NCBI GenBank assembly: GCA_947630705.1
Contig: CANRIK010000007.1
Coordinates: 1-64,000, forward strand
Length of the DNA: 64,000 nucleotides
DNA from: an uncultured Clostridia bacterium
Lineage (GTDB): Bacteria; Bacillota; Clostridia; Christensenellales; Borkfalkiaceae
Reading direction: 5' to 3'
In this document: piece after piece, positions 545 through 37,907 of the stretch
Layout of the letters: each line of letters begins with the position of its first letter
How positions within the stretch are numbered: the first letter of the stretch is position 1
Program-made: the position numbers and the translations under genes
Notes under the pieces: model-generated
Database searches by the model: none
What the model saw: only the letters and a program-made list of their open reading frames with translations
What the model was told of the DNA's origin: nothing

Positions 545-707
545 CGTAGGGGGGTGAAGGATCCCGAAGAACGAAGTCCGAACTTCGGCTCACTGCGTTC
601 GCCGCTTCCCCTAAAAGGGGCAGCGAGGGGACTACCGCCCTATCTTCCTAAAAACGGAAATTATTGACAAAAAAGCGAACTATTTCCAAACAATTTTGGA
701 AAATTTC

Positions 708-736
708 TTGACTTTATGAAACGATAATGATAGAAT
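708..736 (+). promoter_or_regulatory. Sigma-A promoter of first giant surface protein
   Basis: TTGACT, 17-bp spacer, TAGAAT. The predicted start is about 18 bases upstream of the double palindrome in the leader. Confidence 0.75.
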
Positions 737-760
737 AAGAATGAGACCGTGTGGGATTCT

Positions 761-797
761 GCCCCCATGGGGGCAGTTTGTCATTTCATGACAAACT
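761..797 (+). promoter_or_regulatory. Leader double palindrome (copy 1)
   Basis: The palindrome GCCCCCATGGGGGC is followed directly by a 10-bp inverted repeat, AGTTTGTCAT - 3 nt - ATGACAAACT. The identical pair sits in the leaders of the next two paralogues; only the 3-nt loop differs (TTC here, GTT there). It may act as tandem RNA hairpins or as an operator. Confidence 0.7.
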
Positions 798-871
798 AAA
801 AAATCTTAACCGGAAAATAAAATCAGGCAAAGCGGACAAGATAATATCCGTATAGCAATTCAGGAGGAAGT

Positions 872-3800: not shown

Positions 3801-5800
3801 ACGAACTCAACGCGGGAGCGGGAACACTTGCCGGCGGTGCGATCATCGGTGAAGGCTATAACGGAACCGTTCAAAATAATATCATACTCGAAAAAGTTAC
3901 TGTTGATCATGATATTAACGGCTATTCGATTTTCAGCGGCGCACTCATCGGGCATACGTGGGGGAGCGTTACCGTTACAGATTTAAGTATGACGGAATCT
4001 TCCGTAGCCAGCAACTGGAAAGCGGGCGGCTTGGTTGGTTATTATGAGGGCGATTTCACGTTGACAAACGGCGAGATCTCAAATGTAGAGGTCGATACAA
4101 GCGATTCCTTCTTCGCCCCCGGTGTTTTGGCCGGGCACGCAAACGGTACGAATACGACCTTTACAGACTGCAAAGTTGAGGCGCCCGACCAGTCTTTGAT
4201 CGGAACGTCGTACAACAACAGATCAAAGAATGTTACGATTACGGGAGCCGAGACGGATATTCATGTCGAATCGCTTGGAACGACAGGGACGGAAAGCGTT
4301 AAGATCGATCTTACCAAAGATGAAAAGGGCAACGCTTCGCAGGTGCAGTTCTCTGAAAAAGAACTTCCTTCCAACCTGACCATCACCCAAAACGGAACGG
4401 ATATTGTCAAGGAAGGTCAGCCGACAGAAGCTGCGGGCGACCTCAAAACCGATCCCGAGAACGGAAGTTTCATCTTTGAGTCTAATCCAAAGAATATTGA
4501 TCTCTACACGGAGGGCTCACTCCATGTCGGCAGCTATGATACAATCACGGCGGCACTTGCAGATGCGTCCGAAGGTGACAGAATTTACGTCAATGCCGAT
4601 CATACGGAAGAAGTCACGGTCGGCGGGGATAAGAACGTTGCGCTGAACCTTCTCGGGCATACCCTTATGGGTAAGATCACGGTCGAGGGTACGCTTACGC
4701 TTGAAAACGGCTTCGTGAAAGCGGAAAGCGGAGACGCCGTGACGGTAAGGGGCGGGACGCTCACCCTTGCGGTTCCCGCGCTCGGCGAGGACGAAACGGA
4801 GATCGAGGAACTCAAGATCACGGCAACGAGCGGCAAGGCCGTCAACGGTGATTATACCGTTGAAAAGAACGACAATGTGGTCTGCGTCCGCGTGAGCGAA
4901 AACGAAAACGAGATTTATCTTGCCAAGGAGCATGAAGTCGGTACCTACACCGTAGCGGGTGCGGTCATTACAGTGCGTTGCAAGCACGATGACGTTGAAC
5001 TTGGCACAGTGACTCTTGTCGCTCCCGAGAACACAACGTTCAGCGGCGAAAAGATCGAGGCAACGGTCGTTGTGGCGCCCGATGGCTTCGTCGAGGCTCC
5101 CAAGATCACCTATAAGGATGCAAACGGTGCGGAAGTCCAAGAGATCACCGCGGCGGGGACGTACACGGCTAGCATTACGCTTGGCGATGTGACGGCTAGC
5201 ATCACGATCGAGGTAAAACAGAAAGAGCTTGTCATCAGCAACATTCGCGACACGATCACCTATCAGGGTGAAACGGAGCTTACCCTCACGGTCACGGACT
5301 ATGACCTCACGGATCTTGCGGGAAATCCCGTGGAATTGGATGGCGTCACCGTGACGGTTACGCTCCAAAAATCCAAGTACAACGTCGGCGCGAAGCAGGT
5401 CGTCCTTATCTCGGCGATCAATATGACGGGTAATGATAATTATGCGCTGCACACGGCCGGCAACGAGGTCTTTATGGAACTCGACGTCACGCCTGCGGCT
5501 CTCACGGTAAGAGTTGATAAGAGCGGGAAGGTCGTATACGAAGGATTCGCGAAAGGTGATGACGAGAGCGTTCTCGAAGGCGAGCTTCACCTTGAATGGG
5601 TGGACAACGGCGACGGAACATCCACGGTGACCCCGAGCGGACTCACGAGCGCGAACTATGTGATCACGTTCGAGAGCGGCATCGTAGAGAACGAGCAATC
5701 GTCGAACGCGCTTTGGATCACGCTTGCGGTCGTCGGCGGAGTGATCGTTGCCCTTGGAGCGGTTGCGGTCGTCTACGCAGTCCGCCGTAAGAAGAACTAA
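872..5800 (+). CDS. Giant secreted, membrane-anchored surface protein (paralogue 1)
   Basis: 1642 aa. The start is fixed by AGGAGG four bases upstream. An N-terminal signal peptide ends near ANA-EE (about residue 36). The long ectodomain is beta-rich with recurrent DLNGH-type turns (IDLNGHTLS, LDLNGHKLK), typical of right-handed beta-helix or adhesin proteins. A central segment (about 900-1130) has GLUG-like features: FDGQ..ITGI followed by VGLFGY, and repeated GALIGHTWG-like turns. Near 1450-1590 a module resembles MBG/YDG filamentous-protein domains. A single C-terminal transmembrane helix and an RRKKN tail follow; there is no LPXTG, so anchoring is by the membrane helix. The ligand is unknown. 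The last 195 or so residues are almost identical to paralogue 3, which suggests gene conversion. Confidence 0.85.
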   Translation: MKVLKKQGLTLFLIAALIVTLTLGIVFMMPARTANAEEFVPKKTETVADEQALLAAVKNAGDTPTLIKLDASIELKTSAVSIGQNQTIAIDLNGHTLSRAGWVIVNWWGKLYLQDSSSEKTGTIADANTNGGTNVMGLVYNYGEMHSSVNYDVVYSSCVAITNQLRLTGEDNTEYICNPSLTITGGTIKHRGSSNNGVTLLEVIDGDVTIEGGTFITEQYHGSNTMLLDVSSTYVYPPDYLNVHLDYGTDYVQNPEGGFMSTPVGEEKSRQAMEQLQPIVEAYDAHRESTITINDGDFTSFDSKCGVLNVAAKVERCTGIHCGSSSAGWGSADAEDYNATVSITGGRWGRDLSGYVPEGKWMDLIEETTGDGKDTYYTVRDVDRSRVGAEVTIKGVTRPYIDFLSAWNAAKTTVAEEHIIKLLQDSTIKSLSLEQVSGDMVLDLNGHKLKIDPEASNAKHIAVSNSIFSYPNRFIIRDTSVYQNGELELSASKGIGRQSYFYLYTGATKVVLESGTIRQTGLAPESYKDYSIDSVTSSNDDRLYEMSLFKFSPTGLSSGYLDKYENEFLDSVTIKGGNIVSELSFGTAENVVTTHPGVLVGYTPKSGNYEFGVVSKEKDFVPNKDKIIILDLEAYLADGTKSCIFSWNFDDILSPKGLSSSPRGNDYIVSKVGEGEYFLVGSSSEKFGTLAQALSKAQEGDTIFVLQDATIDEAVTINKGITLDLNATTDFTVTVGEQGSITLTDGASIKYGAIEGGVTAAGDAQLSGTKITGEINVTGGTLSIDSGIYEGAFTVSGAELAITGGSFRGDQIQTLDQYFGNFLGAYIEAGKEYVPDTLYPVQIAPNLAAQKWYKDNSAKENFEIATTDEWNYFSLYVNSGADSFEKKTVKLTAPLNFGGNPSGVSLFAAREAATPFLPAGNVAHPFMGSFDGQENEITGIVAREKLVGLFGYTKSVTTISNVTVRNSTFTVGNGYLDELNAGAGTLAGGAIIGEGYNGTVQNNIILEKVTVDHDINGYSIFSGALIGHTWGSVTVTDLSMTESSVASNWKAGGLVGYYEGDFTLTNGEISNVEVDTSDSFFAPGVLAGHANGTNTTFTDCKVEAPDQSLIGTSYNNRSKNVTITGAETDIHVESLGTTGTESVKIDLTKDEKGNASQVQFSEKELPSNLTITQNGTDIVKEGQPTEAAGDLKTDPENGSFIFESNPKNIDLYTEGSLHVGSYDTITAALADASEGDRIYVNADHTEEVTVGGDKNVALNLLGHTLMGKITVEGTLTLENGFVKAESGDAVTVRGGTLTLAVPALGEDETEIEELKITATSGKAVNGDYTVEKNDNVVCVRVSENENEIYLAKEHEVGTYTVAGAVITVRCKHDDVELGTVTLVAPENTTFSGEKIEATVVVAPDGFVEAPKITYKDANGAEVQEITAAGTYTASITLGDVTASITIEVKQKELVISNIRDTITYQGETELTLTVTDYDLTDLAGNPVELDGVTVTVTLQKSKYNVGAKQVVLISAINMTGNDNYALHTAGNEVFMELDVTPAALTVRVDKSGKVVYEGFAKGDDESVLEGELHLEWVDNGDGTSTVTPSGLTSANYVITFESGIVENEQSSNALWITLAVVGGVIVALGAVAVVYAVRRKKN

Positions 5801-5813
5801 AACCAAATACCCC

Positions 5814-5842
5814 AAAGACCGCCGTTTTTTACGGCGGTCTTT
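5814..5842 (+). terminator. Intrinsic terminator
   Basis: AAAGACCGCCGT pairs with ACGGCGGTCTTT around a T-rich loop, just after the stop codon. Confidence 0.85.
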
Positions 5843-5893
5843 ATAAATTGGGGAAAATTTTTTCTTTTTTTCCGATGAAATTGAAACAAATCC

Positions 5894-5922
5894 TTGACAA
5901 TCCTCATTCGGAATGCTATGAT
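5894..5922 (+). promoter_or_regulatory. Promoter of second giant surface protein
   Basis: TTGACA, 17-bp spacer, TATGAT with a TGC extended -10. The same promoter is repeated almost base for base upstream of paralogue 3. Confidence 0.85.
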
Positions 5923-5945
5923 AAAATCAACTTTCTAAGGATTTT

Positions 5946-5982
5946 GCCCCCATGGGGGCAGTTTGTCATGTTATGACAAACT
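5946..5982 (+). promoter_or_regulatory. Leader double palindrome (copy 2)
   Basis: Same GCCCCCATGGGGGC plus AGTTTGTCAT/ATGACAAACT pair, loop GTT, about 17 bases after the predicted transcription start. An ATG inside the loop opens the reading frame early but has no ribosome site. Confidence 0.7.
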
Positions 5983-6013
5983 AAAAAACCTTAACAGAGG
6001 TCAAGGAGGTAGT

Positions 6014-9000
6014 ATGAAAGTACTCAAAAAGAGAGGAACGATGCTGTTCCTGATTGCTGCGCTTATCGTGACGCTGACGCTCGGCATCATTTTTGCAATG
6101 CCCGCCCGCACCGCCAGCGCGGAGGAGTTTACTCTTGTGACGACGCAGGAAGAGATCGAGAATGCGATCAATGCATCGTCGGATGAGAATCCCGCCTATG
6201 TGAAGCTGGACGGGGATGTCACGATGAATGATGGTGATAAGCTGTGGGTACAGCGCGGTCAAAATATCACCATTGATTTGAATGGACACGTTTTTGCGAG
6301 TGCAAAAACTACGTCCGGTTTGATTGTGAATTATTGGGGAACGATTACGATCACCGATAGTTCTCCGAATAAAACAGGCCTCGTAAAATCTTCTCATGTA
6401 GGGGCAAACGCGTATTTGTTCCAAAACCATGGTAATTTGACTGTTGATGCAAACGTTGATTTTACCAATACAGTCGGTATTTATAACTATGTAAGGCTTT
6501 CGGATGGGGAATATGTATGCAAACCCACGGTTACATTCAAGAGTGGGAATATTAAAGTATGCAGAGGGTATAATGCATTTCTGATGTGTGACGCTTCTTT
6601 CGTTTTCGAGGGGGGTACATTCAGTGATGACGCGGACTCTTTACTTGAGATTGATACTTTTTCCGAAGACGGTGCGAAAATCAGCGGAGATAATCAAGAA
6701 GCAGCAATTGCAGCCGATATTGCAAAACGTAAGGCGAATTTTGACGTCATGGCAGAGCATCGCGGGAGCGATATCGTTGTTTCCGGCGGTGATTTTTCAG
6801 CCTTTGACGGATATTATGCAAGTTTATTGGATCTAACCTATGTCTACACCATACAGACGGATATCAAGTTCTACGATACTTATAACGGTTCATGGAGCGA
6901 TTCCGAGGCGGGAACTCGTGGGAAGGCTGATTATACCGTTGAAATTTCGGGCGGCACATGGGGCTACGATATAGGTGCTTACCTTGCTCCCGGATATTGG
7001 ACAGTGGAAAATCCCGATGCTCAAGGTACATACCTTGTTGAACGCGCACAAGAAAATAGAGCTGTTGTGGAAGCAAACGGGGTTTATTTCAGTACGTTTG
7101 ATGCAGCATGGGCAACAGCTCAAGGCCGTGCGGCAATGGGGAAAGATACAACACTCAAGCTCTTAAATAACTGCGAGACGACGACATTGAATTTCCCTGA
7201 CGCGCCGAATGTGGCAACGATCACAATTGATTTGAATGGATTCGATCTCTCCATTACCCAAAGTTCGGAGGATCAATATCATGTATATGGCTACAATAAC
7301 CAGCGCGAACAGATTACTCTTGTTGTTCGCGACGGAAGCGTAGAGCAGAGCGGCGAACTAAAGCTCATCTACTTGGAAAATGCCGAGAATGGCGGCATCT
7401 ATCTTAGTGAGGATTCCAAATTTGTTTTGGAAAGCGGGACGATCCGCAGAACGGGCGGCCCGCTTAAGGCTGTGGGGTCATATAGTCGCGAGAGCGAAGA
7501 GTACGAATATAAAGCTTTTAGGACGATGTTCCACCTTGCCCCCGCCGGATCCACACAGGGATCCAATCTTTCTTCGTACTATGAAGATGATATGGTGGTA
7601 ATTAAGAGCGGTAGCATTATTTCCGAGCTGAATGGGGAGGCAGGATGGACCGAGGCAGATCGCAAGATGTCCTTTGTCTGCTTCGAGTATGGATATAACG
7701 GGTACTCGAGCTACCAATCCACGCAATATTGCTTAAAAATCGAACCCGATACCGACTATGGCAAAAAGGAAGACACATATTACTCTTCTTTCACGCCGGC
7801 ACAGGACGACAGCAAAACATTAGCGACAGAAAAGAGAAAGCAAGTTGTCAGATTCGACCTTGATGCCCTCAATACTTACCTCAATGGCGAAGGCAAAGGG
7901 TGCCGTTTCTCATGGGATTTGAGCATTCTTGCGCCCGATCTCGTTTGGACGCCTTCGAATGGCGGCTATATCGTCACTCAAAAACAGCCAGACGATAACT
8001 ATTCCGTCAATGGAGAAGGGTTTGCCGAGTTCGCCGAAGCGCTCCAAAAGGCACAAACGGGTGATACGATCCTTGTGCTCAATCCTAATCTCACCGTGAA
8101 TGATGAGAGCGTCATTCTCGACGGCGTAACCCTCGACCTCAATACCTATTTGAGGTATGCCATTACGTTTACAAATGGTATTACGCTGAAAAACGGCGCA
8201 GCAATCAAAAACGGCACTGTGATGGGCGGCGGAGTAATTGTTGACGCGCACGAAGACGGCGGAAAATCCGCTTATTTCGAAAAGGCCGAACTGCAATGCG
8301 ACCTCACCGTGAATGCAAATGCCGACCTTGTCATCTCCGAAGGGAAATATGCGGGGGCCGTCACGGTGCAGAGCGGCGCGAATCTTCTCATCACGGGCGG
8401 TTCCTTCAACGGAAGCGCGATAGAAAATGTCGACCCTTATTTCGGGTTTGCGCTGGGCGCATATATCGCGGCGGGAGAAAAATACGCTGACGGTACGCAG
8501 TACGATGTGAAGATCGCACCTGATCTTGATGCGCAGAAGTGGTATGAAAATAACGAGGGTAAAGCGGCGTTCCAAGTCTCCTCGCCCGATGAATGGAACT
8601 ATTTCGCGGTTTATGTCAACAGCGGCGTAGACACTTTCCAAGGAAAGAAAGTAGAACTTACCGGCGAGCTCAACTTCGGAGGGAACCCTTCGGGCGTGTC
8701 GCTCTTTGCTGCACGCGAAGCGCAGACGCCCTTCCTTCCTGCGGGCAACGCGACCTATCGTTTTAATGGCTCGTTCGACGGACATAACCATGAAATCTCC
8801 GGGATCGTGGCAAAAGAGATGTATGTCGGGTTGTTCGGCTACATGGGCAACGGAACTTTGAGCAATATCAATTTGAAGAATTCGAAGTTTACCGTCGGCA
8901 ACGGATATCTCGACGAATTCAATAAATCCGCAGGCTACCTTGCGGGCTCCGCGATCACCGGCGAATCGTCCGGCGCATATTATGAGAACCTGTCGATCGA

Positions 9001-16560: not shown

Positions 16561-16682
16561 AGGGTTCGGCCTGACATTAGGACATGGGGCGTTCTAAAAC
16601 GTCCTATTTCCCCCCTGTCAACAACTCGTTCCCGACTTCCGAAAAAATTTTCGGTCATGAGCGATTTTTTTGCGAAAAACCC

Positions 16683-16713
16683 TTGACAATCAAAAACCGG
16701 GGGGGGGTAAAAT
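16683..16713 (+). promoter_or_regulatory. Promoter with poly-G spacer (phase-variable candidate)
   Basis: TTGACA and TAAAAT are 19 bp apart, and the 3' end of the spacer is a run of nine G. Loss of two G would give the optimal 17 bp. This is the arrangement known from Neisseria porA, where slippage of a poly-G between -35 and -10 sets expression. Whether it varies here is inference. Confidence 0.6.
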
Positions 16714-16802
16714 AGGGAATGCATAGATATATTAATAGTTCTGTTATTTTCGTGTGGAAAAACGGAGCTGTTGATCATGCAAATTTCAAAAGGAGTAAGG
16801 TT

Positions 16803-19800
16803 ATGAACAAGACAAGAAAGCGTTCTTTTACCGCTTCGCTTTGCGTGCTCGTATGCGCACTTGCGCTTGTCCTGTCGCTCGGCATTTTGAGTGCATGCGG
16901 AAGCGATGAGAGCGCAACTGTCGACGAGAGCGTGAGCGGGGCGACGTGGTACTACGGCGACAAAGAACCCGCGGAAGATCTCGGCAGGGAAGGGGATTAC
17001 TATCTCAATACCGAGACGCTCGCGAGCTACGTCAAGGAAGGCAAGACATGGCGCGAGGCAATGGATGGCGAAACGGGCAGCAGCTGGTACTACGGTTCCG
17101 CCGCCCCGCTGGATACGATCGGCGAAGCAAACGACTTCTACCTCAACACCAAGACGGGCGAACTCTATCAAAAGTCCGAAACCGGCTGGGGGACGGCTAT
17201 CCTTACGCTCAAGGGGACCCCGGGCAGAGACGGCGTGCTTTGGTTCTCTGGCAACAAGGCTCCCGAGAAGGACGATCCCGCCCTCAAAGACGCGCGCAAA
17301 GGGGACTTCTACCTCAACAACAGCACGTTCGACGTCTATCAACTCAAAGAGGACGGGACGTGGGATCATCTCGGCTCTGTTAAGGGAGATCCCGGAGATG
17401 ACGCCGTGGATCCCATTCAGTTCTTCGACGGCGAAGGCGCACCCCAAGGGAAACCGGAGCTTGAGAGCGCCAACGAGGGCGACTTGTATCTCGGCACCTT
17501 CGACGGAATGGACGGCAACGGCACGGGCTCACGGCTTTACAGAAAGGTCGGGGGTGACTGGGTCGTCCTCATGGAGAGCATCAAGGAAAAACAGGCCGCG
17601 ATCCACAACATTGCGGAGCTCAAAGCGTTTGCCGTAAAAGTAAATGACGGTTTCGACTTTAAGGGAATAGAAGTTCATCTGAAATCGAATATCACTTTCC
17701 CGGAGACGGGGTCCGCGCTCGGGCGCCGCGGGTTGGATCCGATCGACGCCGCCACATGGACGCCCATTGGGACGAGCGATAAGCCTTTCCGCGGCACGTT
17801 TGACGGCGAAGGGCACACGATCGAGAACTTCTCGGCAAAGACGACGGACAGCGCGACGGCGGTCGGCTTCTTCGGACATGTCGAAGGGGCGACGATCGAA
17901 CATCTCCATTTTGTCAAGGCAGAAGTGACGGCGAGCGGCGAAGGTTCCGTCGGCGCGATCGTCGTGGGCCAGGCGAAGGGCAACATTACGGTGAAGGACG
18001 TCACCGTCACGGGAGACAGCACCGTCACGGCACAATCGAGCGCCACGACGGGCAGCCTTGTCGGCAAAGCCGAAGAGGGCACCGTCACGGTGGAAAACGT
18101 CGAAGTGGAAGTTACAAGCGCGGGAGAGCACGTTAGCGGCAACGAAAAACACGACCTTGTCGGTAGCGGCGATGTGACGTTCCAAGGCGAGAATAATGCA
18201 GTCGGCTATCCCGTCGTTGAGGGCGTAAATGGCTTTGTCGAAAAGCGCATCCTCGGCACCACGGGCGAAGTCGAGAGCACGATTTACGAAATCTCCACGG
18301 TCGACGGTCTCAAAGCCTTCCGCGACAGCGTGAATGGCACGCTGGAAAGCGGGGAAAAGCCCAATAACTATTCAGGGAAAGATGTCGTCCTTGTGGAGGA
18401 TATTGATCTTGAAAACGAAGCATGGTTGCCGATCGGCTGCTATAAGCGTGCAATCGAAGGCCAGGCGAATAAGGAACAACTTCCTTTTGAAGGCAATTTC
18501 GACGGCGGCAATCACACGATTTCCAATCTCAAAATGTATGCCCTAGAAGATGGGTGGAGCGGTGATAATTACTATGGCCTTTTCGGTCTCACCAAAAAGC
18601 CTATGGAAGGCACGCAGGAAATCAAGAATCTGACGATTATAAATGTTGATATGCCCGCTCCGAAGAATTATGACCCTGATGATCCCTACACTTGGCATGG
18701 GAACCATAATAACGTGGGCTATATCGGTGCATTGGTCGGGGTTGCAACCGGGACGTCGTTCAGCAATGTTCATCTCAAAGGAGATATTTATCTCCGCGCG
18801 AATAGCAATGTCGGTGGCCTCATTGGGGTGCTCGAGCCCGATACGAACTCCGTTTTGAGCGACCTCTCCGTCGAGGGAGACGGCTTTATCTGGGCGACAA
18901 AGACGGCTGGCGGCATTATCGGCTCGGTGAACTATTCGTATGATGGAGCGGCGACCTTGGAGCTGAACAATATTAAAGTTTCGGAGGTCGTGGTCCACGC
19001 TCAAACCATGTTTATTGGCGGCGTCGTCGGAGAGCTTGCAACATCTTCTTCGTCCAAGACGATTGCTGTTACGATCGACGGCGTGCAACTTGACGGCGTG
19101 CGCGTTCAACCCTACAATATCTCAAGCGATAATGCCAAGAAGACGGTCGGCGCAGTTGTCGGCGGATATGAAAAGGAAGTCACGTCCGTGACGATCAAAA
19201 ACGTGACGGGCACCGCGATCGTGGAGAATGCCCCCGATCGTCCGAATGACGCGCATGCGACAATGCTCAACGGCGGTATCATCGGTAAGAATACCGGGAA
19301 TGAAGAGGACAGTCATGTCACTATTGAGGGCTGCGAAGGGCTTACCGTATATTGGTACAGCACGCTCGGGGTAAGATCCGACGGGTATGTTATCAAGGAT
19401 GTAGAGGGGCTGATTGCTTTCCGTGACCTCGTCAACGGCGGCGAGGATTGCACGGGCAAGACGGTCGTCCTTGCGGCGGATATCGATCTTTCCTCCGTCG
19501 ATAATTGGGAGCCGATCGGTACGGTGACAAACGCATTCAAGGGTACATTCGACGGCGGCAACAAAACCATCTCCAACCTCACGATCAACACAACGACGGG
19601 CTACGCGGGGCTGTTCGGTAACGCGGAAAATGTCGTTCTAAAAAATGTTGCGATCAATGGGGCAACTGTCACCGTACACAACGATAGCGCAGTAACATAT
19701 TATATTGGTATTCTTATTGCACGCTGTCTCAACGACAACAGCTCGATTTCGAATGTAAAAGTCTATAATGCCAAAGTACAAGGTACCACCGCGCAATATG

Positions 19801-24894: not shown

Positions 24895-25158
24895 ATGAAA
24901 ACCAACGAAGTGCTCTTAAAGCGTATAAACGAAGCGATCTTAAAGCGTATAGAAGAAATTTGCGCCGAAAAAGGCAAGAATGTCTGTAAGGCGTGTTTGA
25001 GCGGAGGCAAGTCGACGTCAGCTCTGTATGATCTGATAAAGGGCAGAACGAAACGTCCGAAAGTCGCCACGATCAAGAGCTTTTGCAAATGCGTGGGAAT
25101 TACCTTGTCCGAGTTCTTCGATCGGGACTATTTCAACAATTTAGAGGACGATGATTAG
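24895..25158 (+). CDS. XRE-family (Cro/CI) transcriptional regulator
   Basis: 87 aa from ATG; a TTG five codons upstream is also possible because the nearest Shine-Dalgarno-like GGAAGG lies very close to the ATG. The protein is a single helix-turn-helix of the type common in Clostridia: ALYDLIKGRTKRPKVATIK, then GITLSEFFD. It has no other domain. The upstream gap holds an inverted repeat GCGATTT/AAATCGC around a TATAAT-like box, a plausible autoregulatory site. It lies at the left flank of the AT-rich island and may belong to it. Confidence 0.8.
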   Translation: MKTNEVLLKRINEAILKRIEEICAEKGKNVCKACLSGGKSTSALYDLIKGRTKRPKVATIKSFCKCVGITLSEFFDRDYFNNLEDDD

Positions 25159-25422: not shown

Positions 25423-28400
25423 TTATTGTTGCGATAATAATACTTTTAACTCAAAAAAGGTTATTATGTCGAATCCGACTTTTTTATAAGAGGACGTGAA
25501 TACCTTGTTTGTAATCATGAGGTTTTTGATAGTGTATTCAGATGCGTCATCAATACCTAATGACTCAAAAATATCTTTAAGGTGGGTTGATAAATATTCT
25601 ATTCGTTTCGCGAATTTCTCATCTTTTTTATCATTGACAAAAAAAGTGTTTTGATGATTAGCATATTCCTTTATTGATCCAACTTTAATTAAAAATTTAC
25701 TCTCTAAATTCCAAATAATTTTTTTATCTGTATCTATTGCTAACACATCATAATCTCCTAAATCTGATGGATACTTTTTATTGATTTTGCTCAGCTTCAA
25801 ATTTTTAAATGTAATATAACCGGCGTTCTTACATAATTCATTTATATCGGTTTCCATTTGAGTTTCACATTTCTTTTTCCATTGTCTTAAAACGATAGTG
25901 AAATTATTTAAATTAATTTCATAGGGAGGGTAAAATTCTTGCAGTCCTACTTCCCACATCGTTGCTAACTCATACATTACAACGGGCGAGAAAATAAGCA
26001 TATTCCCGCTTTTGACGATTGGTCTAACATCAAATCGTTGATCTCTTTTCTCTCTTTCCCAAACGGGAACAAACGAATTTTTTTCATCACCAATATTTTT
26101 GATTTTTGAAGTATCAATAGTTAGATAATCTATAGCCTTTACATAATCATCAATTTGATTTTTATCTGTTAAGGCGCTTTCCAAATCAGCTATAAGTTCT
26201 TCTCTATTAATTTCAAAAACATCAGGTTCTGCTTCATGCGTAAATGTGTGGTAAAATTCAAAAGAAAAATAATTATAGCATAGACTAATAATGTCAACAA
26301 GAGAAACAGATGTGTCTTTATAAAATGCACTAAGAGCCTTTTTAAGCCACACTTCATCGTCGGCTCTCTGTGGCACATAATCTTTACTGCTATAAATTCT
26401 TCGATTTTGCACGTTGGCATAATCAGAACCATCGTTTGAATATTTTGTTGAAACTCTATAATCGTCCTCGATTTCTATTTGTGCGTCAAACAATTTGTAA
26501 TGTGCTTGATCTGCGCAATCTTGAAGAAGCATTAGCCAATGAGAGAATGCCAACAAATATTCAACGTCATTGTTGTTAGGAAGTTTACTTACAGTTCTTT
26601 CAAGCGACAAATTAGTATCGATTAGATAGCATAGATCTCGAATTTGATTTTTTTCTTCTTCGCGCAAATTTATTGTGTTGATAATCGTTCGCTCTTTAGC
26701 CTCTTCACTTAAACTGTCTTTATTAGACAGAATATACCGTTTCATATCTAAATTCTTATTGTGAATATATGCCGCAAGGGTTGAAACGACTTTTTTGTGT
26801 AGTGATAGTTTATCATACTGCATTATTTGGTCTTCGAATTTAGGAATAATCAGCTCCTGTAATTTTCTAACTATTTCGGTGGCTCTATCGTTACTATAAA
26901 TTCCCGGTTTTATACCAACCGTTTTACATATTTGTGCAATTTGTTTTCTAACTGCTATATATTTCTCATCACTCGGTTTAATAGTCTGATTATTAAAAGA
27001 AAAATAATATTTCTGTTCAATGGCGATTGCTTCAATATCTTTTTTATTGCCTCTCAATTCGTCTATCTCTTTGTTAATAATATCTACATTAATACCAAAC
27101 TTTTCATTAAGACACGACAATAATTCCGACATGAACTCGCATTCAACATTTTTTGTTGATGAGGACATAATATCATTCATTAAGGCTTCATCATTTACTG
27201 CGTATCGAATTAATATTTTATTTTGAAACGAACTACAGTCACTATACACATATTTTTTGTCCTGTTCCAGAAAGTGAGTATTATCTACCGTTCGAGCATA
27301 GTTCATTGGGAGATATGTTATTTGTACTCCGTCAAAAGAGTATAAATTCGCTTTAATTAAGGCATCTTCAATTAAAACCATATTTCGTTTCAGCAATTCA
27401 TCAATCATGCGAATATGCTCTGCATGTATATTCCATTGCTTAACATCTGTCACCAATTTTAAATTGTGCGCTAAAAAAAGATAAGAATCGGCAACTTTTC
27501 TAAAGTATCCTCCAAACCCTATTACAGCTTTATTTAAAATTAATTTAAATTGTCCATCTTCTTCGTCCTGAACTATCCACTGGAAGGGCTCTTCAAACAT
27601 TTTCGAATAATGATTGAATGGATACCATTTATTGAGAATCAAGTACTTTTCAAATAAATTCCACTCAAAATCGTATACGATAGAAGCAATACCAGAAACT
27701 TCAAATGCCCCTTGAGAAAATTCTTTATTTGATTCAATCCACATTGAAAACAGACCAGACAATCCACTATGGAAATCTATTGTTTTTAAAGTTCCGTCAT
27801 TATATTTAGAAAAAAATTCAGCGATTTCTTCACCATCATGCGCCAGGTCAAAAATCGTTATAAGGTCATATAGATAACAACTTGATATTTTGCCAGTTTC
27901 TTTCAGTTTAAGGACAGGTCCCAAGATTAGAGCATTATCATAGAAAATGATTTCAACTGTTTCCATTTTAGAAAAGTCGAAGAGTACAGTTTTTTCGTTT
28001 TTAATAAGTTGAATTATTTTCAAATCATTTTGTGAGTGTAAATTTTTAACGGCACTATATAGACGTGTCATATCACGTCCATGAAGAGCACTTTCATTCA
28101 TAAACAAAATTAATGATTTTCGGTTAATTAACGCAAAATCAAATAATATTTGTTCTAGGATTTTTTGCTTGTTTAAGTCTTCAACAACACCTATTGAAAA
28201 TAATATATTGGGACTTTCAGGGCTAATATCAAAGTTGCTGCACAATCGCGAATAGACAGCTCTATCTGCAATTTGATTTCGCCTCATTTTTAACTCAGGC
28301 AGATTAAGCATTATTGTATTATAAGCATCAACAATTATACTCGGGTTGAACAACGGTACTAAAACCTTCCCTTGTTCAATTAAGAAATGGGATGTGGTTA

Positions 28401-29064
28401 TATCTTTTTGCTCTTCAAAAGATAACTTTCGTATGAAACAGTCGTCTGGCGGCGAAAGGCGCTGATAGTATTCCAAACAGGCACAAAAATATTTTTCTGA
28501 AGGGCAAGAAAGTTCATTGTACTGATACTTGTTTGAATCAAATGGTTCTATATTTTGGAGCGCATCAACCATTTCTAAAACATATGACAGTACATCTTCC
28601 ATTTCTTTTTCTTTGTTTATTGCTGAAATATTTGTATCTAAGCATTTCATGAGAGGATATGCGTGGTTATATCCATTCCCAATCAATATCGGATAGAACG
28701 TGCTATTAAATACGACTTTTATTTCACCAAAGTCAGGAATAATAGGATCATTCAATGTTGAATTATTATATCCCATGATTGAATCATAAAAGGACATAAA
28801 TTGCTTATAGGTTTGAATTTGCCTTGTCCCGGTTCTATCAATTTTGGAGAGAACATAATTCAGAGTCAAGTAAAATGATAAATTTGGTCGATTATATCTC
28901 CATGAATTGATACAGAAAACTGCTCTACATAGGTCAAAAAATGAATACTCGGATAATATCGGAAATAGTTTTTTGGCTGAATTTTTGTCTATTAATAATG
29001 CCTCATTATTCAAAACTGAATTTGCGTTTTTTGATGCAAACTTGTTGGCGTGTTCTTCTTTCAT
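25423..29064 (-). CDS. Large uncharacterised protein with C-terminal PD-(D/E)XK-like motif
   Basis: 1213 aa, third gene of the leftward restriction-modification operon, 79 bases after the endonuclease gene. Most of the length is helical and matches no family I know. Near the C-terminus the stretch GDYDVLAID..IIWNLESK gives D1106 and E1121-x-K1123 on adjacent predicted strands, the standard layout of a PD-(D/E)XK nuclease core. No Walker motif, Toprim or helicase motif was found. Codon use is AT-rich like the rest of the operon, so it was probably acquired with it. Inferred role: an accessory defence nuclease or effector linked to the type IIS system. It could also be independent of that system. 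Confidence is high for the gene and low for the function. Confidence 0.8.
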   Translation of the reverse strand: MKEEHANKFASKNANSVLNNEALLIDKNSAKKLFPILSEYSFFDLCRAVFCINSWRYNRPNLSFYLTLNYVLSKIDRTGTRQIQTYKQFMSFYDSIMGYNNSTLNDPIIPDFGEIKVVFNSTFYPILIGNGYNHAYPLMKCLDTNISAINKEKEMEDVLSYVLEMVDALQNIEPFDSNKYQYNELSCPSEKYFCACLEYYQRLSPPDDCFIRKLSFEEQKDITTSHFLIEQGKVLVPLFNPSIIVDAYNTIMLNLPELKMRRNQIADRAVYSRLCSNFDISPESPNILFSIGVVEDLNKQKILEQILFDFALINRKSLILFMNESALHGRDMTRLYSAVKNLHSQNDLKIIQLIKNEKTVLFDFSKMETVEIIFYDNALILGPVLKLKETGKISSCYLYDLITIFDLAHDGEEIAEFFSKYNDGTLKTIDFHSGLSGLFSMWIESNKEFSQGAFEVSGIASIVYDFEWNLFEKYLILNKWYPFNHYSKMFEEPFQWIVQDEEDGQFKLILNKAVIGFGGYFRKVADSYLFLAHNLKLVTDVKQWNIHAEHIRMIDELLKRNMVLIEDALIKANLYSFDGVQITYLPMNYARTVDNTHFLEQDKKYVYSDCSSFQNKILIRYAVNDEALMNDIMSSSTKNVECEFMSELLSCLNEKFGINVDIINKEIDELRGNKKDIEAIAIEQKYYFSFNNQTIKPSDEKYIAVRKQIAQICKTVGIKPGIYSNDRATEIVRKLQELIIPKFEDQIMQYDKLSLHKKVVSTLAAYIHNKNLDMKRYILSNKDSLSEEAKERTIINTINLREEEKNQIRDLCYLIDTNLSLERTVSKLPNNNDVEYLLAFSHWLMLLQDCADQAHYKLFDAQIEIEDDYRVSTKYSNDGSDYANVQNRRIYSSKDYVPQRADDEVWLKKALSAFYKDTSVSLVDIISLCYNYFSFEFYHTFTHEAEPDVFEINREELIADLESALTDKNQIDDYVKAIDYLTIDTSKIKNIGDEKNSFVPVWEREKRDQRFDVRPIVKSGNMLIFSPVVMYELATMWEVGLQEFYPPYEINLNNFTIVLRQWKKKCETQMETDINELCKNAGYITFKNLKLSKINKKYPSDLGDYDVLAIDTDKKIIWNLESKFLIKVGSIKEYANHQNTFFVNDKKDEKFAKRIEYLSTHLKDIFESLGIDDASEYTIKNLMITNKVFTSSYKKVGFDIITFFELKVLLSQQ

Positions 29065-29143
29065 ATGGTTCTCCGATATAAGAGTAATTGATTATGTGTT
29101 GTTTTTTTATTTTGGAGCCGTTATATTTTATTAGTTGTTTCTT

Positions 29144-31117
29144 CTATAGCTCAGTAATTCCATCTATAATCTTTTCCTTATACCACTTATTGGGCTCTGT
29201 ATTTGCATGATAGGCGTCCTCAAAAATTTTATAGATTCGTCTATAAGTTATGCCACGCTCTATAATGGTTTTTATTTCGCTTGTTTGGCAAGGGATAATT
29301 TTCATGCCGTCTATTACCTCGGAACCGTCGGATGAGTAGTATTGGCTATGTTTTCTCATCCTGAAATCGGAAATGACATTGATGTGCAGATAAGTCGTTG
29401 CGAACAGGCAATAGGCTTCTTCACCTCTATGAGAGAGAAGATAATCGCCCAAATGCCGTGATACCGGTTCCATCTCCATTCTGCGTTGATTGGTGCCGCC
29501 CGCCAATGTCGCTTCGATCAAAAGCGTGTGCGCGGGATATGCCTCTGTTGCCTCGTAATGGTATGTAATATCTTCGTGCCCGCCCGCGGCATGTGTAATG
29601 GGGAGTAAGTCGGCATCCAAAGACAAGTTCATATATTCGAGAACTTTGCCTTGTCGCCCCGATATTTTATACCATGCAACCGCAAGTACATATTCAAAAA
29701 TCGTCGGCACGTCGGCGTTGTTCGTGACCATTGCTTGAATTTCCGAATCTCTGCGCTCTTCAAATAATGTCATGAGCGAAATCAGCTTTTCATCAGTAAA
29801 CATTTCGTCAACCATACGATTAAACCTGTCATATCGCTCACGATCCACAAAGGCTTGTACATCATACAAATTTCTGACCTGAACGCCGTACAGTGCTTCA
29901 ACCTTTGCAAAAATTTCTTCTTGGGAAATTGCTACGCCGATAATGGCGGGCAACTCAATGTCGGCGGTGAGCGAGGGTTCTTCGTTATAAGCCATTTCAG
30001 GCAATCGTTCCGTCAGCAAATGGAAAAAACAGTTCGGGATAATGTCGAATTTGACCTTATTGTCTTGGAACAGAACAGTATCCGTCGTCTTGAAATATCT
30101 GCGGTTCAAATCAAAATAGTCGGAGAGCAAGCTCTTTGCTTTGAACAAATGCAAAAGTTTGAAAAACTCCAATCTCAACTCCGCCTCGGTATGGCAATCA
30201 AAGATTCGTTGCCCGATGTTCAAAGCAGAATATCCATCTCTTTCCACGGCTTTCGTATTTGTAGTCGCAAATAAATACTGCTTCCAAAGCGTTGCGCCTT
30301 TACCGCTTAAACTCTTGACTGCGCGGAAAAGTTTTACGGCAGATTCGTCCGAATGAGTCTGTAAAACATCCGACAGCGCGACATATAAATCATAGTACGG
30401 CTTATCGTAACTTTTACTCTTCCGATTCATGCCGATTTCCATAATCAACTCTTCGGAAAGTTGGGCTTGTAAAAATGTCGAATATGCCTCGCGGTAATTA
30501 GGCAGATCCATCAAAACCGCGATGATTGTTTCGTCAACAGTCGATTCGCCACGACGGATTTTCTCTATCGCGTTCAAGATATATTCCGTTTTTGTCTGAC
30601 TGATGGCAAGAGGCAGAAGGTATGTAAACTCTTCATCAGAAAGTTCGCCAAGACGATTGAGCGCCATGGCGAGAATTAAGTATGGACGAGCAAAAGCACC
30701 GTCGAGCGAACAAGACACCTTTAATAGCTGTCTGAAATACAGAAAACTATCCGCGGGGATCTGCAACAAATTTTCCCGATTAAAATCTTGTTCGGTGGCG
30801 ATTTTCAGCAGTGCTTTCCCTGTGTCGGTCAGGCGACGTTCATCATCAATTAAGCCGAGATCAACAAGCCCCGAAGTCTTTTCGCGCGCATCTTTGGCTT
30901 TGCGGGGAGCATCACCGACTATAAATTCCTGCGCTTTCAGAAAATTATAATATGCTTCCTGTAACGGTTCGTTTTCAGACCATTTTTGCGTTGCAAATTC
31001 AGGGTTGCGCCAAAACTCATCGAGATACGCAAGTTGTTTCTCGATTTTACGGTTGAACTCAACCATTCTGAAACTCGTTGTCCCAAGCGACCAACAATAA
31101 CTTTTGTACGCTGGCAT
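29144..31117 (-). CDS. AlwI-family type IIS restriction endonuclease
   Basis: 657 aa, 14 bases downstream of the methyltransferase with an AGGAGAG site. The C-terminal third shows the AlwI/MlyI/N.BstNBI-type core: PTIFEYVLAVAWY, then HAAGGHEDI (D516), LLIEATLAGG (E535), and QRRMEMEPVSRHLGDYL. In this family the usual lysine of PD-(D/E)XK is replaced, as seen here (IEAT). The N-terminal half would be the recognition part. Family members cut outside asymmetric sites, and a two-domain methyltransferase next door fits that. The recognition sequence cannot be read from the protein. The family assignment is by motif memory. Confidence 0.75.
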   Translation of the reverse strand: MPAYKSYCWSLGTTSFRMVEFNRKIEKQLAYLDEFWRNPEFATQKWSENEPLQEAYYNFLKAQEFIVGDAPRKAKDAREKTSGLVDLGLIDDERRLTDTGKALLKIATEQDFNRENLLQIPADSFLYFRQLLKVSCSLDGAFARPYLILAMALNRLGELSDEEFTYLLPLAISQTKTEYILNAIEKIRRGESTVDETIIAVLMDLPNYREAYSTFLQAQLSEELIMEIGMNRKSKSYDKPYYDLYVALSDVLQTHSDESAVKLFRAVKSLSGKGATLWKQYLFATTNTKAVERDGYSALNIGQRIFDCHTEAELRLEFFKLLHLFKAKSLLSDYFDLNRRYFKTTDTVLFQDNKVKFDIIPNCFFHLLTERLPEMAYNEEPSLTADIELPAIIGVAISQEEIFAKVEALYGVQVRNLYDVQAFVDRERYDRFNRMVDEMFTDEKLISLMTLFEERRDSEIQAMVTNNADVPTIFEYVLAVAWYKISGRQGKVLEYMNLSLDADLLPITHAAGGHEDITYHYEATEAYPAHTLLIEATLAGGTNQRRMEMEPVSRHLGDYLLSHRGEEAYCLFATTYLHINVISDFRMRKHSQYYSSDGSEVIDGMKIIPCQTSEIKTIIERGITYRRIYKIFEDAYHANTEPNKWYKEKIIDGITEL

Positions 31118-31131
31118 ATACTTCTCTCCTA

Positions 31132-33270
31132 TCAGTAATTGACGATTAAAACCTCATCGGTTTTCGATGTTCTGTCTTTCGTCTGATAATTTGAATTGGC
31201 ATAGGTGTAATCCAAATAAATCACACGATATTTGCCGATATTTCTGTTTACCCAATCAAGCAAGATTTTGTTTTCCTTGCCCTTTGAGTGTAAGACATTC
31301 GATAAAGCAAACCTAATCCCACGTTCATTCAGACCATCTAAATAGGCAAGCAGTTCTCTTTCCAATGTTTCGTTCCAACCGTCTTGCTCGTTATAGGTGG
31401 CGCAGGTAATCAAATACGGGGGATCGACATACACAAAGGTCTTGTCATTCCATGTTTCGGTTGACAGTTCGCGGAAATCACTACTTTCAAAAGTGTAATC
31501 GCCGCTCTTCAACCGATCGATGAAGGATGAGAGTTTTTCGCGCATTTTTCTATTAAAATCACGCTTGCCGGCAGGCAAATTAAACTCTCCTTTTCTGTTA
31601 AACCGAATTTGATTGTTGAACGCATAGATTATAAGGACGTACAAGGTGATATAGTATGCGTAATCATAATTTGTGCGCTTATTAAAATCGGCGCGCAATT
31701 TCATAAAACCGGGAGTATTATATTTTGCCAATCCGTCGGCGCTGTTGCACCCATAATATTCATATCCATATTTATCTGAATCGGATAGACCATATTTTTC
31801 GATAATACTGTCTATCAATTCAAATGTGGCTTGCTTGTCCATGTTTTTGAATGTGCCAAACATATATCGAAGCAAAGAGTTATTATCATTGAAAATGACC
31901 TTATTACAAGGCACATTTATCCCAACGTTACCGCCGCCGCAGAACAAATCGACAAAGCACTCAATATCTATGGGGAAATGCGGCAGAAGCTGTGGCAAGA
32001 GCTTATATTTGCCGCCCGTATAGTTGAGCGGAGATTGAATTATTTCCTTTTGCTTATAGTCATAACACTCGCAAAGGAATAGCCTTTCCTCGTTATCTTT
32101 AATGTCGGACTTGCCTGCGCTGAACGCGCGATACTGTTCCGAAAATACTTTCACGCGACCTTTTTGGGAAAGGATACGCATAATATCGGCATCGCTTATC
32201 TTGGCGTTGGAACGACCGTTCCCTTTCTCTGCCATGTTGTTATAGGAGAGAAGAATATATTTCGCTTTGATTTTTCCAATCAAGTCCTCGAACGCCTTGA
32301 CGGCGTTCGACGTGCAGTAGTCGCTTTTTAAGCTGCTACGATCCATCTTCAATGCTACGCCCGAAACCGTGGGCTTTTGCCATCTTGCAACATTTTCAAG
32401 CAAGTGATATGCATCGCAATATTGACGAGAGTTATAAGGCGGATCAATGTAGACCAAATCTGCTTCAATGCGTTCAACAAGAATATTTGCGTCCTCGTTG
32501 TAGCATTGATTATTTTCATTGTTATTGTTTGCAGCCAAAGGAACGCTCAATTCCAAGTGCCTGTCAAATTGCGCTCCTCTGATATACGCATCATAATGTC
32601 CGCAAGTATTTGCAATTTTGTCCATCGCATAAAGGAGCGATGTAATCAGAATCGCTCTTTCGCGGGCATTAACCTTTTTTTGTCGATAGATTTCCTCAAT
32701 ATCTTCGCGGATAAATCCTATTTTTCTGCAATCTTCCAAAGAGAAGAATGTGTCCGCAAAGTTTTCGGACATATAATTTTCTTCTTGCGGAATTACAGCA
32801 TTATAATAGCAAATCAGATTTTGTATCTTTTCTTCGTCGTAATGTTCGGAGCCGAACCATGCTACATGACAAATGTAATTGAAATAAAGTAAGTCGTTGG
32901 TGATCAGCTTTTTGTCGGAAAAAGCGGAAGCAACCGAGCCTGTGCCGGCAAAAATATCCGCAACAGTATTCACGCCTTGACATTCTTGCGCTACCGTTGA
33001 CTTGATGAAGGTCAGAAGTTTATATTTGTTCCCCAAATAGCGGCGGTTGTTGATATTGGTAGTCTTAAACTTTGGTGCTTCTTCTGCAGGTTTTTCGCTT
33101 TTAGCCGACAACGCTTCACGCATTTTAGAAACCGTCTGCTCATCCCAAATATAGCGTCCCGTTGAAGTGGTAGGAACACTAATCAACCCGTTTTTAACCA
33201 AATAGTAAAAAGTTGATCTGCTTAAATTGAGTTCAGATACGATTCTATTCGATGTTAAAGAGGTCGCCAT
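31132..33270 (-). CDS. Two-domain D12-class adenine-N6 DNA methyltransferase with N-terminal HTH
   Basis: 712 aa, first gene of the operon, AGGAGAACAGC before ATG. Residues 1-55 are a MerR-like helix-turn-helix (STFYYLVKNGLI, then GRYIWDE). Methyltransferase domain 1 has DIFAGTG (105-111) and DPPYN (276-280). Domain 2 has NYTGGKYK (416-423), DLFCGGGN (441-448) and DPPYL (616-620). Two complete D12-type catalytic sites in one chain are as in M.FokI, where each half methylates one strand of an asymmetric site. It should protect host DNA from the endonuclease encoded next. The HTH may let it repress its own promoter. Confidence 0.9.
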   Translation of the reverse strand: MATSLTSNRIVSELNLSRSTFYYLVKNGLISVPTTSTGRYIWDEQTVSKMREALSAKSEKPAEEAPKFKTTNINNRRYLGNKYKLLTFIKSTVAQECQGVNTVADIFAGTGSVASAFSDKKLITNDLLYFNYICHVAWFGSEHYDEEKIQNLICYYNAVIPQEENYMSENFADTFFSLEDCRKIGFIREDIEEIYRQKKVNARERAILITSLLYAMDKIANTCGHYDAYIRGAQFDRHLELSVPLAANNNNENNQCYNEDANILVERIEADLVYIDPPYNSRQYCDAYHLLENVARWQKPTVSGVALKMDRSSLKSDYCTSNAVKAFEDLIGKIKAKYILLSYNNMAEKGNGRSNAKISDADIMRILSQKGRVKVFSEQYRAFSAGKSDIKDNEERLFLCECYDYKQKEIIQSPLNYTGGKYKLLPQLLPHFPIDIECFVDLFCGGGNVGINVPCNKVIFNDNNSLLRYMFGTFKNMDKQATFELIDSIIEKYGLSDSDKYGYEYYGCNSADGLAKYNTPGFMKLRADFNKRTNYDYAYYITLYVLIIYAFNNQIRFNRKGEFNLPAGKRDFNRKMREKLSSFIDRLKSGDYTFESSDFRELSTETWNDKTFVYVDPPYLITCATYNEQDGWNETLERELLAYLDGLNERGIRFALSNVLHSKGKENKILLDWVNRNIGKYRVIYLDYTYANSNYQTKDRTSKTDEVLIVNY

Positions 33271-33603: not shown

Positions 33604-34629
33604 ATGGATAAGTTAGCATATCATCTGAATAAGAAGAAACAGCCTGCGCCTACGGACGGCAAGTTTCTGTACTATTACCCCGCAGACGAGGAGATTGCGA
33701 ACGCGCACGTCGGCAACAAGTATTACATTACAGTCGAAGTCAGCGAACAGGAATGGGAAACGCTCATCGAGATGGATCGATTGGAGTACAACAACACGCA
33801 TACATACCAACGCCATAATACCGTTCTCCCGGACAGAGATACAGAAGCCTTGCTCTCACCCAAAGAGCAGGAGCAGTTCATAGACAAGAATTTCAGCTTT
33901 GCCGAAGCAGAGAAGAAACCGCCGAAAGCGTTGCGGAATACAGACGACCTGACAGACAGAGAGTTCGAGGTTTACAATCTATGCGTAATCGAGGACAAAA
34001 CGCAGGTGGAAGCGGCGGAAGAATTCGGTCTTACGCAGGGCTATATTTCTATGACGCTCAAAAAAGAAAAAGAGAAAGTCACGAACGCAGAATTGAAGAA
34101 CGCAAGCCCCGAAGTATATGTCCGCAAGTGTTGGGATATTTTCCTTGACACAGGCACGATGCCTGATTATTTAGACGTCGAACTCGAATTTGTTATTCGT
34201 TGGCTTTTATTGGATTTGCTCCCGCTTACCCATTGGTTTTACAGTGTCGGGGAGTTCTGCCGCCATCTTATGACCTATTACCTTTTTGACGAGGACAAAA
34301 TAGAAGCAGATATAGCGAAGTACAAAGAAACGGTCGATGTCGAAGAGCGGCAACACTTTGAAGAATATTACGGCGATAGACCGCCCATTGTGCAAGCCGT
34401 TTATGTGCGTCTTATGACGGAGATGAAACGTCGGCAACAATCGGGACTTCACGACTCGGACAAAGCCTATAAGAGCATCTACTCCACGGCGGAGAAGATC
34501 GCAAGCCGCTTGAAAATATCTACTTACGACTTTCTTACCCAACGCTTCTATCCGTTCATTGCCAAGTCAAGAAACAAGCGTATTGAGCAGTTTTACAAAG
34601 CCTATTCAGGCAAAAAGTTACTAAAATAA
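33604..34629 (+). CDS. Integrative-element HTH (sigma-like) protein, element A
   Basis: 341 aa. A helix-turn-helix of sigma-70 region-4 style lies at about 116-158 (LTDREFEVYNLC, then TQVEAAEEFGLTQGYISMTLKK). The N-terminal part (20-70) is a short beta segment with a histidine-rich end. The C-terminal half is helical. The layout matches the 379-aa protein encoded on the minus strand at 45364-46503: same order of beta segment, HTH, RYL/RWLLL helix and C-terminal FYPFIAKSRNKRIEQFYK-like end. Both genes have TATAAT exactly six bases before ATG. Probable regulator of element excision or transfer; precise role unknown. Confidence 0.7.
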   Translation: MDKLAYHLNKKKQPAPTDGKFLYYYPADEEIANAHVGNKYYITVEVSEQEWETLIEMDRLEYNNTHTYQRHNTVLPDRDTEALLSPKEQEQFIDKNFSFAEAEKKPPKALRNTDDLTDREFEVYNLCVIEDKTQVEAAEEFGLTQGYISMTLKKEKEKVTNAELKNASPEVYVRKCWDIFLDTGTMPDYLDVELEFVIRWLLLDLLPLTHWFYSVGEFCRHLMTYYLFDEDKIEADIAKYKETVDVEERQHFEEYYGDRPPIVQAVYVRLMTEMKRRQQSGLHDSDKAYKSIYSTAEKIASRLKISTYDFLTQRFYPFIAKSRNKRIEQFYKAYSGKKLLK

Positions 34630-34759: not shown

Positions 34760-35545
34760 ATTTACAAGTATTACGAGAACAAAATGGGAATGCCCGAACA
34801 GAAGTATCTGCGGGACAAGCACGCAACCATTTCCGTCATTACGCACAAGAAAAGCGAATTTGCAAGTATAGACGAATACCTAAAAGACTGCGAACAGCGG
34901 TATAAGGTAGAATACTTAAAAAGAATGTCCACAACCGAACAGGCGTGGAACAAAGTAATGAAGTCTACGAACGCAACGTACAACAACCGAGGCAAGAACA
35001 TTGTCTTGGAGTGCCTGCAATTCGGCGGCAACAGGGAGTTATGGGACGACTTCCCCGACGAAGAAGAAATAAAGGCATACTTCCGTAAGTGCTATGCCTA
35101 CGCCATAGACAAGATAGGCTTTCTGCACACACATGAGAACATCATCTGCGCAGTAATCGTCACCGAGCCGAACAGGCGAAACCTCTTTGTCTATTATCTT
35201 CCCGTCACCGAAGTTTGGCAAAGGAAAGTTTTAAGTAATGACAAAAGCGAAGCAGGCAACAGACTTCAAATGCGCGATGAGTACGATATGCCTATGTATA
35301 GACAACGCATTGAAATAGACGAACCATTACTTTCGCATTCTGAGTTTTGGAAGGCGCGCGGCGGGTTGACTTCCTATTCGGACTTGCAGGAAGATTTCTA
35401 TATCAAAGTATCCAAAAAATACGGAGCCGTCCGAGGTGAGAGTTTCTCGCTTGTCAAGAATACCACCCTTCGGCAACAGGAACGCTATGGCAGGTTTGAG
35501 GGCGACCTCTACGACGAGCTTTACTTCGACGACAGCCCATTTTGA
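34760..35545 (+). CDS. MobV/Pre-like protein lacking the relaxase motif
   Basis: 253 aa from the ATG at 34784, or 261 aa from an ATT start at 34760. The only Shine-Dalgarno (AGGAGG) is nine bases before that ATT and 33 bases before the ATG, so the rare start ATT is favoured; the residues read IYKYYENKMGMPEQKY. The protein follows the MobV/Pre plan: NNRGKNIVLECL, then HTHENIICAVIVTEPNRRN and YLPVTEV. However, the HxDExTPHxH metal-binding stretch of real relaxases is replaced by IVTEPNRRN, so nicking is unlikely. The end keeps the coiled KNTTLRQQERYG segment. Possibly a retooled replication or mobilisation accessory. Confidence 0.6.
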   Translation: MYKYYENKMGMPEQKYLRDKHATISVITHKKSEFASIDEYLKDCEQRYKVEYLKRMSTTEQAWNKVMKSTNATYNNRGKNIVLECLQFGGNRELWDDFPDEEEIKAYFRKCYAYAIDKIGFLHTHENIICAVIVTEPNRRNLFVYYLPVTEVWQRKVLSNDKSEAGNRLQMRDEYDMPMYRQRIEIDEPLLSHSEFWKARGGLTSYSDLQEDFYIKVSKKYGAVRGESFSLVKNTTLRQQERYGRFEGDLYDELYFDDSPF

Positions 35546-37657: not shown

Positions 37658-37745
37658 TGGTGCCCGAGATCGGATTTGAACCGATACGCCCTTGCGAGCT
37701 CTGGATTTTAAGTCCAGTGCGTCTGCCGTTCCGCCACTCGGGCAC
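37658..37745 (-). tRNA. tRNA-Leu (UAA)
   Basis: 88 nt with encoded CCA. Acceptor GTGCCCG/CGGGCAC, anticodon stem CTGGA/TCCAG with loop CTTAAAA (anticodon TAA, U33 present), short variable arm and TTCAAAT T-loop. Its 3' end faces the element-A integrase. Confidence 0.93.
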
Positions 37746-37907
37746 GATTTTTGTGAAGTTTTCATTTATAAATGTTAAAAAAGTGTTAATTTCTTTCTGT
37801 CAATGCTTTTAAGTCCAGTGCGTCTGCCGTTCCGCCACTCGGGCACGATTTTTGTGAAGTTTTCATTTATAAATGTTAAAAAAGTGTTAATTTCTTTCTG
37901 TCAATGC
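37706..37907 (-). repeat. Tandem 101-bp duplication of the tRNA-Leu 5' half and flank
   Basis: The stretch from the anticodon loop to the 5' end of the tRNA plus about 61 bp of upstream flank occurs twice, 101 bp apart, without a mismatch. The second copy therefore contains a truncated tRNA (37807-37846) lacking its 3' half. Each unit boundary is at the anticodon-loop sequence TTTTAAG. Confidence 0.9.

Follow-up and report, generated by a model that had tools for sequence, protein, structure and literature searches.

The window analyzed here comprises the first 64,000 nucleotides of contig CANRIK010000007.1 from an uncultured Clostridia bacterium (Borkfalkiaceae; assembly GCA_947630705.1) and contains three consecutive minus-strand genes, encoding proteins of 712, 657 and 1213 amino acids (aa). 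An initial annotation described these as a type IIS restriction-modification (R-M) operon ending in a putative nuclease of unknown family. On the basis of sequence profiles and a predicted structure, the 1213-aa protein no longer lacks a family: it is a divergent, distant member of the Upx superfamily. It is probably a single-gene nuclease that acts independently of the R-M pair, with both carried on an integrase island beside a tRNA-Leu gene.

The kinship is apparent from profile and fold comparisons. An hhalign comparison with four PADLOC-Upx proteins gave an E-value of 1.1e-20, and the profile of a family alignment of 19 rows (A5, window protein included) matched the Upx structure 9wuf_A at 8e-12. 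Five of the 19 clade members also reach the PADLOC Upx model at E ≤ 0.1 (best 1.4e-7). The structure model of the window protein (pLDDT 85.1, pTM 0.78) is predicted to share the fold of 9WUF over its whole length. Single-sequence searches were nearly blind to the family. The PDB search with the window protein (P0001) returned just two chance matches (E 0.28 and 0.29), and the same 1213-aa query found matches in 2 of 150 related genomes and in 2 of 398 genomes of a phylum sample, its own genome included in each count. Upx is reported to come from an earlier study, an origin supported by a table entry in PMC10855318, where it appears as an antiphage system under nuclease activity. PMC12629846 describes Upx as clustering mainly within a single hotspot of Pseudomonas PAGI-1 islands. 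No published paper on the Upx structure was found in our literature searches; in PMC12691588 the same letters denote Bacteroides capsule genes.

The C-terminal PD-(D/E)XK motif characteristic of Upx is likewise present. The D-x14-E-x-K pattern, from which a nuclease had been proposed, falls exactly on D1106, E1121 and K1123; it is kept in 30/30 family proteins, including that of the window (with x13 spacing in one), and lies on two beta strands predicted in the model (residues 1085-1092 and 1097-1104), so that it is more than a chance occurrence. Invariant positions in A5 are G1103, D1104, Y1105, D1106, E1121, K1123 and R1154. An N-terminal SEC-C (zinc) motif occurs in five of the 19 rows and is absent from the window protein. 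From the sequence we infer a nuclease activity and an anti-phage function, in a protein whose N-terminal and central parts form a large scaffold and whose C-terminal domain is of the PD-(D/E)XK type. The R-M pair would cut incoming unmethylated DNA; as a second layer, the N-terminal part of the Upx-like protein may sense some feature of infection, upon which its C-terminal domain would cut nucleic acid, independently of the R-M pair.

As proposed initially, the two upstream genes form, by their family matches, a sound type IIS R-M pair, and the coordinates and lengths of all three genes were confirmed (Table 1). The 712-aa protein contains two D12 methyltransferase stretches (PF02086, 6.2e-67), the second half belonging to the Dam subfamily, and the 657-aa protein covers the whole RE_AlwI profile (1-441 of 441), with N.BspD6I as its nearest solved relative. 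The locus thus combines an AlwI-type endonuclease with a two-domain adenine methyltransferase, and the AlwI and Nt.BspD6I type IIS restriction enzymes are the closest known systems. That the pair is complete without a third gene follows from its relatives in loci L078 and L079, which have just the methyltransferase and the endonuclease and no Upx relative. A variant arrangement was seen on a Priestia megaterium plasmid (L084 1853-9959), where two AlwI-type endonuclease genes flank one double-domain methyltransferase.

The two parts of the window locus do not recur together. AlwI-type endonuclease or double methyltransferase genes were found in none of 31 other family loci (L003, L004, L009-L012, L014, L015, L017-L035, L037-L040; blastp, E 1e-4), some of which are limited by a short contig or by a gene that sits where the contig ends (e.g., L015, L023, L025, L030, L031, L033). 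Contigs recovered more than once were counted once (L021 is the L013 contig; L023, L016 and L002 are one contig). Locus L036, which holds a Upx fragment of 162 aa on a short piece of contig and is outside this set, also lacked an AlwI-type match. Conversely, two Upx-family profiles (E 1e-3) detected no relative in nine AlwI-type loci (L078-L086; six genome loci and three plasmid records, fetched from 4 other genomes, 9 genomes in a second search and 42 plasmid records), although the L083 contig ends just past the endonuclease and hides the region downstream. As a recurrent neighborhood, a third component of AlwI-type systems is therefore not supported by these sequences. The G+C content of the Upx-like gene (31.7%) is 9 to 12 points off that of the endonuclease (43.9%) and methyltransferase (40.7%) genes. 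The 0/31 and 0/9 counts and the differing G+C suggest separate origins for the Upx-like gene and the R-M pair.

Relatives of the window protein are widespread. A first scan of genome contigs found none among 16 stretches; a second, with a four-row alignment, yielded 19 loci, a lower bound given by two short peptide patterns plus tblastn. These span Clostridia, Bacilli, Acholeplasma, Omnitrophota, an actinomycetotal and a Pacearchaeota metagenome-assembled genome (MAG), and genome searches added relatives in G005, G286, G743 and G651. The PADLOC Upx model matched once in 249 phylum genomes; it matched 0/14 controls, so that the control does not show sensitivity. A plasmid search returned two distant relatives, on Lactococcus pFI430 and on a Streptomyces plasmid, and Deinococcus, Bosea and Sinorhizobium plasmids carry others. 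With the Streptomyces protein as query, 15 Streptomyces records were matched, 10 of them at ≥80% coverage. These proteins of linear or large plasmids (e.g., WP_331759446.1, annotated as hypothetical) have the size of the window protein, carry the motif in all five records inspected and match by profile at 1.8e-9 over 493 columns, but differ in forming a third clade (support 100/100); a PADLOC scan of one member (P0004) gave no match. No relatives were found in 50,697 phage records or in three viral-contig scans, which says nothing for or against a role in defence. Some copies are broken: that of pFI430 is split by IS981, that of L. garvieae is divided between two frames, and that of L015 stops early. 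In the last (L015 111-1487; G286 contig C36), one open reading frame (ORF) joins an HsdM N-terminal domain, a SEC-C motif and an Upx-like start before ending at the contig edge, and may be a chimera, a relic or an assembly error.

Twenty neighbors of the relatives, chosen by eye from 12 loci, were scanned with Pfam. Restriction-type genes included GmrSD, found twice in L017, and, in L032, a type ISP enzyme. The initial annotation's refuting case, homologs lying consistently away from restriction loci, applies to AlwI-type loci and does not extend to other restriction types, which adjoin two relatives, or three with the L015 fragment. Other neighbors encode AIPR and FRG (L024), AAA_15 (L019), an OLD-like ATPase and Fic (L014), a Schlafen-like protein (L033) and an ArdC-like protein (L035), and mobility genes comprise relaxases (L020, L022) and a recombinase (L017). 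Four of the 20 had no Pfam match (L019:7583, L029:2805, L033:2623, L035:96) and one (L026) only a sub-threshold match; neighbors in L021 and L022 were read in part, the L021 contig being seen whole as L013. This survey suggests that defence islands and mobile elements are the natural setting of the family, which is not bound to one partner. On the Deinococcus plasmid L037, an Avs2-like gene (1-3207) directly precedes the Upx gene (3613-7308). In Acholeplasma oculi (L019), a second copy of the beginning of a uvrB-like gene lies upstream of the region of the Upx-like gene (5452-5727 vs. 16632-18587); this copy opens with the same residues as the full gene, which would fit insertion of an element at the 5′ end of that gene.

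In the window, the R-M and Upx-like genes share an island with a tyrosine integrase that points towards tRNA-Leu (taa), the likely integration target. Two identical 101-bp tandem units (37706-37806 and 37807-37907) each contain the first part of this tRNA, and a diverged third copy of the unit start follows, possibly as scars of repeated integration. Approximately 29.5 kb of the window (34528-64000) is present again on contig C2 of the same assembly (C2:697-30169; 99.6-100% identity), and the contigs diverge inside the island: after the shared integrase, TnpV and 253-aa genes, C2 carries Ssp/Pbe/Dnd-type cargo (BrxP/DndC-like, SspC, SspA/DndA, PbeA, PbeC and DndB-like) where the window has the R-M and Upx-like genes. 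A 53% relative of the 341-aa protein occupies the equivalent place on C2. There, a 20/21 copy of the tRNA-Leu 3′ part (C2:46882-46902) may be the far attachment site, beyond which lie two C5 methyltransferases. The left end of the island was not found in the window, where this 21-mer (≤3 mismatches) occurs solely in the tRNA itself. Flank proteins in two relatives (L087, L088) show that the right flank is present there without this integrase; a clean empty site uniting the two flanks was not seen. The two contigs either come from different strains assembled together or reflect a genuine duplication, and under either reading the integrase-tRNA arm carries exchangeable defence cargo.

Table 1. 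Predicted features of the Upx-like locus and its island in the window.
Feature	Position	Strand	Basis
Upx-like protein, 1213 aa, predicted stand-alone defence nuclease	25423..29064	-	Relatives, profile and fold kinship; no direct family-model match
C-terminal PD-(D/E)XK motif, residues 1103-1123 (GDYD-x14-ESK; D1106, E1121, K1123)	25696..25758	-	Conservation in family
AlwI-type (type IIS) restriction endonuclease, 657 aa	29144..31117	-	PF09491 E 9.6e-70; N.BspD6I E 6.7e-9
Double-domain D12 adenine-N6 DNA methyltransferase, 712 aa	31132..33270	-	PF02086; PADLOC MTase_II 1.6e-262
87-aa ORF, HTH-regulator-like	24895..25158	+	By eye only; convergent with Upx-like gene, near left side of island
341-aa protein, sigma-70 region-4-like HTH, island gene	33604..34629	+	PF04545 E 3.4e-5, just under cut-off
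253-aa protein, weak MobV resemblance, island gene	34784..35545	+	NCBIfam MobV E 0.0024, below cut-off; identical copy on C2
TnpV-like transposon protein, 152 aa	35542..36000	+	PF14198 E 2.1e-13
Tyrosine integrase of island, 409 aa	36316..37545	+	PF14659, PF22022, PF00589
tRNA-Leu (taa)	37658..37743	-	ARAGORN

Several observations weigh against an independent Upx-like nuclease. The 1213-aa protein had no match in Pfam, PADLOC or NCBIfam up to E 1, and none of the four model searches run on it gave a match. It is approximately 10% identical to 9WUF and lies beyond the reach of the PADLOC Upx model (PDLC02221); the tree places its clade (18 rows, support 96/93) apart from, and as sister to, that of the recognized Upx proteins (5 rows, 97/96), the depth of the split being unsure given long branches and uneven composition. 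Two relatives (L018, L027) lie amid ordinary genes, with no defence neighbor recognized by eye. The common strand and the short gap of 79 nt before the Upx-like gene also speak against separate origins; the R-M genes themselves are 14 nt apart. The 79-nt gap holds a GGAG ribosome site directly upstream of the ATG and, in a consensus scan of the minus strand, no terminator-like site, leaving room for a joint transcript; co-transcription with the R-M genes is possible from this layout.

These features of strand and gap would favor a functional partner of the R-M system expressed from one transcript with it, either a back-up effector against phage DNA that the AlwI-type enzyme has missed or a sensor of modification state, as would the restriction genes of other types adjoining relatives in L017 and L032 and the HsdM fragment fused to one in L015. 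The absence of joint occurrence in either direction, the gap in G+C and the completeness of the L078 and L079 pairs speak against such a partnership, which we regard as distinctly unlikely; as a recurrent arrangement, both roles, which the initial annotation had considered, are not supported by the locus counts, and its third suggestion, that of a separate defence gene which travels with the system, is the best supported. Physiological coupling to the R-M genes on a joint transcript is very unlikely; in that reading the protein might serve, for instance, as a guard triggered once the AlwI-type enzyme is overcome by anti-restriction proteins or phage methylation. A nuclease that stabilizes the island, or that keeps out rival plasmids and elements instead of phages, is unlikely to a lesser degree: many relatives reside on plasmids or conjugative elements, and relaxases are neighbors in L020 and L022, but such locations do not discriminate, because defence genes ride these elements as a rule, and the table cited above (PMC10855318) gives Upx as an antiphage system. 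Least probable is an inactive or degenerate remnant that has simply kept its reading frame. The broken copies in pFI430, L. garvieae and L015 would fit a relic, whereas the window copy has an uninterrupted frame of 1213 codons, retains both the motif and R1154, and yields a confident structure model.

With an independent Upx-like nuclease as the preferred reading, a protein of unknown family becomes a divergent branch of a defence family with a public structure. Since the four model searches gave no match, current defence models miss this branch. Within a single assembly, the same integrase-tRNA arm is seen with two distinct sets of defence genes. Were coupling to the R-M genes true after all, no earlier Upx relative would have had a restriction partner, and the coupling would supply a concrete candidate for the Upx trigger. 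As relatives span Bacillota, Omnitrophota, an archaeal MAG and a Streptomyces sister clade, Upx-type nucleases look under-counted.
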